Shown piece after piece: positions 46,050-46,784 of a DNA stretch of 64,000 nucleotides. Where the stretch lies: NCBI GenBank assembly GCA_000247545.1, contig CP003316.1:1459233-1523232 (forward strand), written 5' to 3'. A program made the translations under genes and the position numbers. A model generated the notes under the pieces. The model was not told the origin of the DNA, made no database searches, and was given only the letters and a program-made list of their open reading frames with translations. This DNA is from Pyrobaculum oguniense TE7 (GTDB lineage: Archaea > Thermoproteota > Thermoprotei > Thermoproteales > Thermoproteaceae). Every line of letters begins with the position of its first letter. Within the stretch, counting starts at the first letter, position 1.

Positions 46050-46099
46050 AACACGCGGCACGGTTAGAATGTTTATAAATAGCAAATTTCGGGGGGTCT
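46050..46099. promoter_or_regulatory. Bidirectional promoter with one shared TATA
   Basis: tttataaat (46072-46080) is the only TATA candidate between GTG 46049 (-) and ATG 46100 (+), 24-26 nt from each. Confidence 0.65.
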
Positions 46100-46198
46100 A
46101 TGCCGATATGGTACTACAGAGAGGAGGAGGAGTGGGAAGAGGAGGAGGAGCTTTGGGAAGAGTTCGAAGAAGAGTGGGAGGAAGAGGAGGAGTGGTAG
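46100..46198 (+). CDS. 32-residue Glu/Trp-rich mini-protein
   Basis: The ATG at 46100 is exactly 24 nt from the centre of TATA tttataaat (46072-46080), and T-tracts begin directly after the TAG, so this is a complete tiny transcription unit. After MPIWYYR the peptide is almost only Glu (19 of 32 residues) interrupted by Trp at 4, 12, 19, 26 and 32 and by Leu18 and Phe22. The Trp spacing of about seven residues suggests an amphipathic helix with an aromatic stripe. Extremely acidic; possibly binds a basic partner or mimics nucleic acid. No family is recognised. Confidence 0.7.
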   Translation: MPIWYYREEEEWEEEEELWEEFEEEWEEEEEW

Positions 46199-46237
46199 TA
46201 TCTTTTTCTCGCTATTTTTCCCTTTTTCTTTTCAGCT
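46199..46237 (+). terminator. T-tract terminator
   Basis: Four runs of 4-5 T within 38 nt directly after the mini-gene stop (ctttttctc, atttttccc, tttttcttttc), the usual archaeal intrinsic termination signal. Confidence 0.75.
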
Positions 46238-46406
46238 CCCGCGTTGTGTGAAATATCTCAATTTTTGTAAACAGGGTTTTTGACTCCTCCTTTGTGTTTT
46301 TCTAGGAGAACCAAGATATTTTACAAGTAGGGTATCTGCAAGTACAAATCTGTAGGTGGGGGATTGTTGGGGGTTAAATTTTTAAATCGCCGAAAATGTG
46401 GGACTT
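46238..46406. other. AT-rich leader region before the decarboxylase gene
   Basis: More T runs (46263-46267, 46277-46281, 46295-46299) and a weak ACTCCT/AGGAG pairing (46283-46308). The TATA tttttaaat (46379-46387) of the downstream gene is at the end. No ORF is supported. Confidence 0.4.
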
Positions 46407-46784
46407 ATGGCGGGGGGCGTGGGGGGTAGGGTAGTAGTCGGCAGGCACGTCTACGGGAACTTATACGGATGCGACGCCAGGGTGTTGGGAGATGAGGCGG
46501 CTCTGATAACGATTGTAAAGGAGGCGGTGAGGGTGGCAAACGCCATGTTGCTGTCGATAGGTTCTTACAGGTTTGGGCCTAACGGTGGTTTGACCGTATT
46601 CGCGGTTGTGGCAGAGAGCCACATATCTATCCACACGTGGCCGGAGCATGGCTTTGCCACTGTAGATGTCTACACGTGCGGGGATCACACAGACCCCAAG
46701 GCGGCTTTTGATTTTATTGTGGAGAAGCTGAGTCCCAAAAAGATAGAGGTTTTCTACGGCGACCGTTCAATGTATAGTGAGTAG
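46407..46784 (+). CDS. speD: S-adenosylmethionine/arginine decarboxylase proenzyme
   Basis: 125 residues from ATG 46407, 24 nt from the TATA. The self-processing site ESHISIHTWPE is present: cleavage between Glu70 and Ser71 would give the pyruvoyl group; catalytic Cys91 lies in DVYTCG. In Crenarchaeota, proteins of this family act either on S-adenosylmethionine or on arginine, and sequence alone does not settle which. Either way it supplies polyamine synthesis. A single-gene unit. Confidence 0.9.
   Translation: MAGGVGGRVVVGRHVYGNLYGCDARVLGDEAALITIVKEAVRVANAMLLSIGSYRFGPNGGLTVFAVVAESHISIHTWPEHGFATVDVYTCGDHTDPKAAFDFIVEKLSPKKIEVFYGDRSMYSE

Follow-up and report, generated by a model that had tools for sequence, protein, structure and literature searches.

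A conserved Glu/Trp microprotein of the Thermoproteota, frequently encoded next to ABCE1, as a candidate accessory factor of ribosome recycling

A stretch of 64,000 nucleotides from the genome of Pyrobaculum oguniense TE7 (contig CP003316.1; hereafter, the window) contains an open reading frame (ORF) of 32 codons whose product is dominated by glutamate and tryptophan. Is such a short and simple ORF a gene, and if so, what does its product do? The original prediction, made from the letters of the window, proposed a mini-gene that is served by a promoter and a terminator of its own, encodes a zipper-like helix, and is too regular to have arisen by chance. The features of the locus are listed in Table 1.

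Table 1. Features of the microprotein locus, in window positions, with the basis of each assignment
Feature	Position	Strand	Basis
Glu/Trp microprotein gene, 32 aa	46100..46198	+	Sequence, codon test, homologues
TATA box TTTATAAA, palindromic	46072..46079	+	Sequence; element and spacing kept in most genus relatives
T-rich tract, probable archaeal terminator	46199..46235	+	Sequence; T-tracts 3' of the stop codon in relatives
Divergent gene, ~188 aa	45483..46048	-	Start (~46048) inferred from relatives; context, outside the conserved system
S-adenosylmethionine decarboxylase gene (speD)	46408..46784	+	PF02675 match, sequence; context only, next same-strand gene

The ORF starts with ATG, spans 32 codons, and ends with TAG (46196-46198). 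Its product, MPIWYYREEEEWEEEEELWEEFEEEWEEEEEW, contains 19 Glu and 5 Trp residues, and both this composition and the coordinates had been predicted exactly. The gene stands alone in the window, with its own promoter and terminator; the two signals foreseen for it, the TATA box TTTATAAA and the T-rich tract, recur in relatives, the latter in nearly all of the genus relatives shown. Since the TATA box is located at -28 to -21 relative to the ATG, and since 21 to 28 nt is the distance typical of leaderless archaeal mRNAs, the microprotein gene is predicted to give a leaderless mRNA. A G-run element (TTCGGGGGGTCT; 46086-46099) lies directly 5' of the ATG and downstream of the TATA box; it is kept in most genus relatives and is a possible initiator or operator. 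The next gene on the same strand, speD, has a TATA-like element of its own (approximately 46373-46386, about 24 nt before its ATG). Because TTTATAAA is its own reverse complement and sits between the start codons of the two genes (ATG for the microprotein, probably GTG for the divergent gene), it is plausible that this one TATA box could drive transcription in both directions, and the sharing of the element with the divergent operon that had been claimed is plausible to this extent.

Given that the ORF is very short and simple in composition, the locus might instead specify a purine-rich untranslated RNA or a GAG-repeat DNA element. In the core of 15 orthologues from the window's family, however, 15 of the 18 third codon positions were variable, compared with 1 of the 18 first positions and 1 of the 18 second positions, and these first- and second-position changes stem from one sequence with a shifted residue. 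The pairwise differences among the 15 orthologues were 703 synonymous and 64 non-synonymous (i.e., 92% synonymous), with 11 to 25% being the synonymous share expected in this test without selection. The third-position variation includes CTT/CTG/CTC for Leu and TTC/TTT for Phe, and no core Trp residue varies within the window's family. The same test applied to the other two frames of the ORF revealed no third-position pattern. The conservation of the frame with a synonymous excess, which the original prediction had proposed to look for in relatives, was thus found. A product consisting of untranslated RNA only, which it had named as a refuting outcome, is contradicted by variation that falls nearly entirely on the third positions of this frame; the codon test refutes both an RNA and a DNA element, and we assign the non-protein explanation practically no likelihood. 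Since the codon pattern is that of purifying selection on the frame and the reversed-pattern controls were near zero, the ORF is far beyond chance, as had been argued from its regularity. In another family (f15), a Shine-Dalgarno sequence (GGAGGTGAAAA) precedes the microprotein ATG in place of the leaderless TATA box of the window's family, so that two independent kinds of start signal mark the same ORF. On the basis of these sequence comparisons, the microprotein gene is translated and under strong purifying selection, and its product is almost certainly a real conserved protein.

Within the phylum Thermoproteota, Glu/Trp ORFs were detected in over 40 families, mostly at one locus per genome; these family counts depend on the DNA patterns and on the sample of loci and cover the genomes of this phylum. 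At the order level, DNA similarity and patterns revealed a single copy in each of most genomes (one genome, G003, has four). A looser pattern (two W-E-E units) matched 182 of the 398 phylum genomes, its reversed control being present in approximately 20, and most of the matches that were read were free-standing Glu/Trp ORFs of 20 to 60 residues (e.g., MVFEEEEWEEGEDEEWEEEEW, MREEEEWEEEEWEEEEWEEEEW, and MMFEEEWEEEEWWEEEEEWEEEEW). A relaxed third pattern, which allowed Asp and one codon of any kind, matched 32 of 80 genomes picked mostly for the absence of the earlier pattern (control, 0). HMMER profile searches of six-frame translations matched 17 of 81 class genomes and were nearly blind to the family, probably because of its composition bias; the DNA patterns outperformed the profiles, and the census is therefore pattern dependent. 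No copy was seen among the genomes read in family f54, and the few pattern matches in f17 included no microprotein. Across 84,980 species, the Thermoproteales-type motif occurred at 18 archaeal loci and at one Bradyrhizobium locus, the latter being the end of a short unrelated frame. Over 93 sequences, the microproteins consist of 68% Glu, 15% Trp, 4% Phe, and 3% Asp, and a typical member has 30 aa (median) and a net charge of about -19. As defined here, the family comprises free-standing proteins of 20 to 60 aa that are mostly Glu/Asp, with Trp or Phe every 3 to 8 residues and usually an aromatic end; the window's member fits this definition.

The prediction that such a gene would be missed by standard annotation was borne out by the family libraries: the 32-aa product had no Pfam match at E<=1, and searches of NCBIfam, of PDB sequences, and of PDB folds were empty. 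The absence is apparently due to proteins that are too short and too simple for gene finders and low-complexity filters. No report of such a protein was found in the open-access literature searched, which is not proof that none exists. A viral origin was also considered and rejected, as the window's motif was not found in IMG/VR and the looser pattern matched mostly long acidic proteins there, plus a single ORF of 34 residues at the end of a contig.

Glu/Trp stretches were also seen in larger proteins. In G003, which belongs to the same genus, the module forms the C-terminal tail of a Cys-containing domain of approximately 65 residues without known family at three loci (L088, L089, and L090), each of which adjoins TnpB-like genes; this genome also has a free-standing copy (L091). 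At L190 (f53) and L214 (f64), a small zinc-finger protein (MPICDICGME...) carries the Glu/Trp stretch as its C-terminal tail; here the module occurs as a fusion and does not stand alone. At two loci of f37 (L312 and L313), a LysW-like zinc-ribbon protein bears a long Glu/Trp-rich C-terminal extension that replaces the short EDWGE end.

The Trp residues of the window's product, at positions 4, 12, 19, 26, and 32, are spaced by 8, 7, 7, and 6 residues; the seven-residue period that had been proposed is therefore approximated but is not strict. The zipper-like amphipathic helix with an aromatic face that had been derived from it does not hold for the family. Over 83 distinct members, the aromatic-to-aromatic steps are mostly 3 to 8 residues and include Trp-Trp pairs, and the hydrophobic residues gave no greater helical moment than in shuffled sequences (median P, 0.41 outside the window's family and 0.12 inside). 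A leucine zipper or heptad coiled coil was rejected on these grounds, the window's member alone being near a spacing of seven. What is conserved is an alternation of acidic runs with a single Trp or Trp-Trp, plus an aromatic end (the last residue is Trp in 61 and Phe in 10 of the 83 members); composition is more conserved than spacing. AlphaFold predicted one continuous helix (pLDDT, 92), which carries little weight, as such a prediction is readily obtained for Glu-rich peptides.

Clues about function came from the genomic context. When the ORFs neighbouring approximately 75 loci were clustered, the gene for the ribosome-splitting ATPase ABCE1/RLI was the one recurrent neighbour; these loci had been selected by peptide pattern, independently of ABCE1, and a given gene would lie within 3 kb by chance in well under 1% of genomes. 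A separate tblastn test placed ABCE1 directly 3' of the microprotein gene, in the same orientation, in one or more members of 21 of the 32 families, at a distance of about 50 bp to 1.3 kb. Loci from the relaxed pattern also adjoin ABCE1 in f18, f22, f31, f36, and f48, bringing the total to 26 families, and the microprotein gene is almost always just upstream and on the same strand. Found in 26 families of very different genomes, the association is strong as linkage, and it is the sole functional evidence. The microprotein gene precedes ABCE1 either by itself or with a gene for an RPB9-type zinc ribbon protein of approximately 95 residues (PF02150) between them, the latter arrangement being frequent. 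This zinc-ribbon protein, which follows the microprotein at L099, may be a second uncharacterised member of the cluster. At ten loci (L092, L094, L099, L220-L222, L241, L242, L249, and L250), a single RPB9-type N-terminal ribbon with an acidic tail and no second ribbon was observed. Upstream of the cluster are genes for a THUMP protein (PF02926), CGI-121 (PF08617), and, in some cases, a phosphoribosyltransferase (the last read by eye), and downstream is a gene read by eye as a probable fructose-1,6-bisphosphatase. Since the neighbours of ABCE1 thus have roles in transcription, tRNA modification, and metabolism (the RPB9-type ribbon and these THUMP, CGI-121, and probable fructose-bisphosphatase genes), the linkage may reflect a general housekeeping cluster.

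ABCE1 is non-adjacent in about a third of the families and also in the window's genus. The window's genome carries ABCE1 (at 551,662) and the microprotein gene (at 1,505,332) on one contig, approximately 950 kb apart. Within the order, genera g2 and g7 and family f3 retain the linkage and the window's genus has lost it; there and in g3, the peptide adjoins the unrelated divergent gene, whose protein has no Pfam or NCBIfam match. The microprotein had been suggested to be a ligand of the divergent operon products, and a partner or regulator of that operon would fit the palindromic TATA box that may be common to both and the adjacency kept in the window's genus and g3. However, the divergent gene is present only in the window's family and the microprotein is spread across the phylum, with ABCE1 as its recurrent neighbour elsewhere. 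The sister genus g2 (G011/G013; L241 and L242), moreover, has the divergent gene and the microprotein on different contigs and keeps the peptide, the zinc ribbon, and ABCE1 together. As a conserved role, partnership with the divergent operon is thus contradicted by the distribution, and we consider it very improbable. Since the microprotein gene still precedes the zinc ribbon and ABCE1 in g2, its separation from ABCE1 can be dated to within the window's family.

The same loci bear on whether the ORF is a leader peptide, i.e., whether its N-terminal acidic run would cause intrinsic ribosome destabilization and so set ABCE1 expression in cis in response to ribosome stability or ionic conditions. 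Acidic runs at the N-terminus are known to destabilize ribosomes, and proteomes avoid them (PMC9718836); the ORF is situated approximately 20 to 135 bp upstream of ABCE1 in seven families (f15, f20, f26, f32, f39, f49, and f51). This arrangement is not general, however: the next gene is convergent, on the opposite strand, in the Vulcanisaeta-like genomes of f2 and in f16, f24, and f25, and the window's peptide is conserved despite the remoteness of its ABCE1 and the separate promoter of the gene that follows. Since the microprotein persists without a target in cis, it must act in trans. The convergent and unlinked loci speak against a leader peptide, which was rejected as the general role, and we judge this explanation improbable.

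From the gene linkage, we infer that the microprotein assists the ABCE1 step of ribosome recycling as an accessory factor, with a probability of roughly one half. ABCE1 splits ribosomes and remains on the 30S subunit, and eIF3j, the helper of this step in eukaryotes, is said to aid it in recycling (PMC7196836). The single-copy, trans-acting, hyper-acidic peptide would act in ribosome splitting or in the 30S-ABCE1 post-splitting complex. Its acidic tract would lie against a basic protein or rRNA-facing surface, and hydrophobic pockets would take up its Trp residues (in many members also the last one), much as with the eIF3j/Hcr1 motif on eIF3b. Candidate partners are ABCE1, a ribosomal protein, an initiation factor, or the RPB9-type zinc ribbon protein encoded between the two genes. 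In the acidic motif of eIF3j, a conserved Trp inserts into a hydrophobic pocket of the eIF3b RRM, to which acidic neighbours add binding (PMC2824034), and HCR1 binds RLI1/ABCE1 directly, with extra RLI1 suppressing an hcr1 deletion (PMC3836723). The two systems are alike in having Trp inside acidic stretches and in their ties to ABCE1/RLI1, which are functional and physical for eIF3j (PMC2824034, PMC3836723, PMC7196836) and consist of gene linkage for the microprotein. They differ in that eIF3j is larger, with the acidic motif a small part of it, while the archaeal protein is the acidic-Trp module only. The microprotein lacks a Pfam match and is too short for the eIF3j domain, and the likeness, as an analogy, is one of composition and mode, not of homology or membership. 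That the microprotein works like the eIF3j motif is a tentative suggestion. It is likewise rather doubtful, if conceivable, that it is a phylum-wide archaeal translation factor of approximately 30 residues that, with ABCE1, splits ribosomes or keeps the subunits apart and foreshadows the acidic-Trp module of eIF3j/Hcr1. ABCE1 works without the microprotein in lineages in which no copy was detected (e.g., f17 and f54).

The partner of a basic protein and the nucleic-acid mimic that the original prediction had offered are also possible readings. In their general form, the microprotein would be a nucleic-acid mimic or acidic chaperone that shields or delivers a basic protein, in the manner of Sem1/DSS1 or of DNA mimics, and the ABCE1 linkage would reflect co-expression only. 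Candidate clients would be a ribosomal protein, an OB-fold single-strand binding protein, or a chromatin protein, for which Alba and Cren7 are examples. The median net charge of -19 together with the aromatics, the retention of composition over spacing as expected of a polyanionic mimic, and the continuous helix predicted by AlphaFold (pLDDT, 92) are all in keeping with such a role. It leaves unexplained, however, why ABCE1 recurs and not chromatin or replication genes, and the invariant core Trp residues of the window's family would be needless for a purely electrostatic mimic; we regard it as unlikely. Sem1/DSS1 is an acidic, Trp/Phe-containing protein of the proteasome lid, TREX-2, and BRCA2. 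Like the microprotein, it is small and hyper-acidic, with aromatic anchors and little fixed fold, but it is longer and Asp-rich and has a C-terminal helix. The microprotein loci showed no linkage to genes of the proteasome or of recombination. The acidic C-terminal tip of bacterial SSB (DDDIPF) similarly joins an acidic run to a C-terminal aromatic residue, but it is the tail of a larger bacterial protein and not a free-standing archaeal peptide. The LysW/ArgW carrier protein, which ends in EDWGE and in LysW carries the substrate on its C-terminal Glu, shares an acidic Trp-containing end and is resembled by the f37 matches described above, but the microproteins mostly end in Trp and have no zinc ribbon. 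The crenarchaeal ribosomal proteins aS33 and aS34, found recently, are comparable as archaea-specific, formerly overlooked translation proteins, but they are folded, are not present in Thermoproteales, and are not acidic Glu/Trp peptides (PMC11698992).

The window thus contains a member of a family of proteins built from essentially two types of amino acid, selected across much of the phylum, tied to ABCE1, and absent from the family libraries searched. If the proposed role in ribosome recycling is true, the microprotein would show how archaea, which to our knowledge lack eIF3, may aid ABCE1. It would then be among the smallest translation factors known and a first archaeal counterpart of the eIF3j/Hcr1 recycling helper. 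The finding also suggests that there may be a class of core microproteins hidden by the filters of annotation and homology searches.
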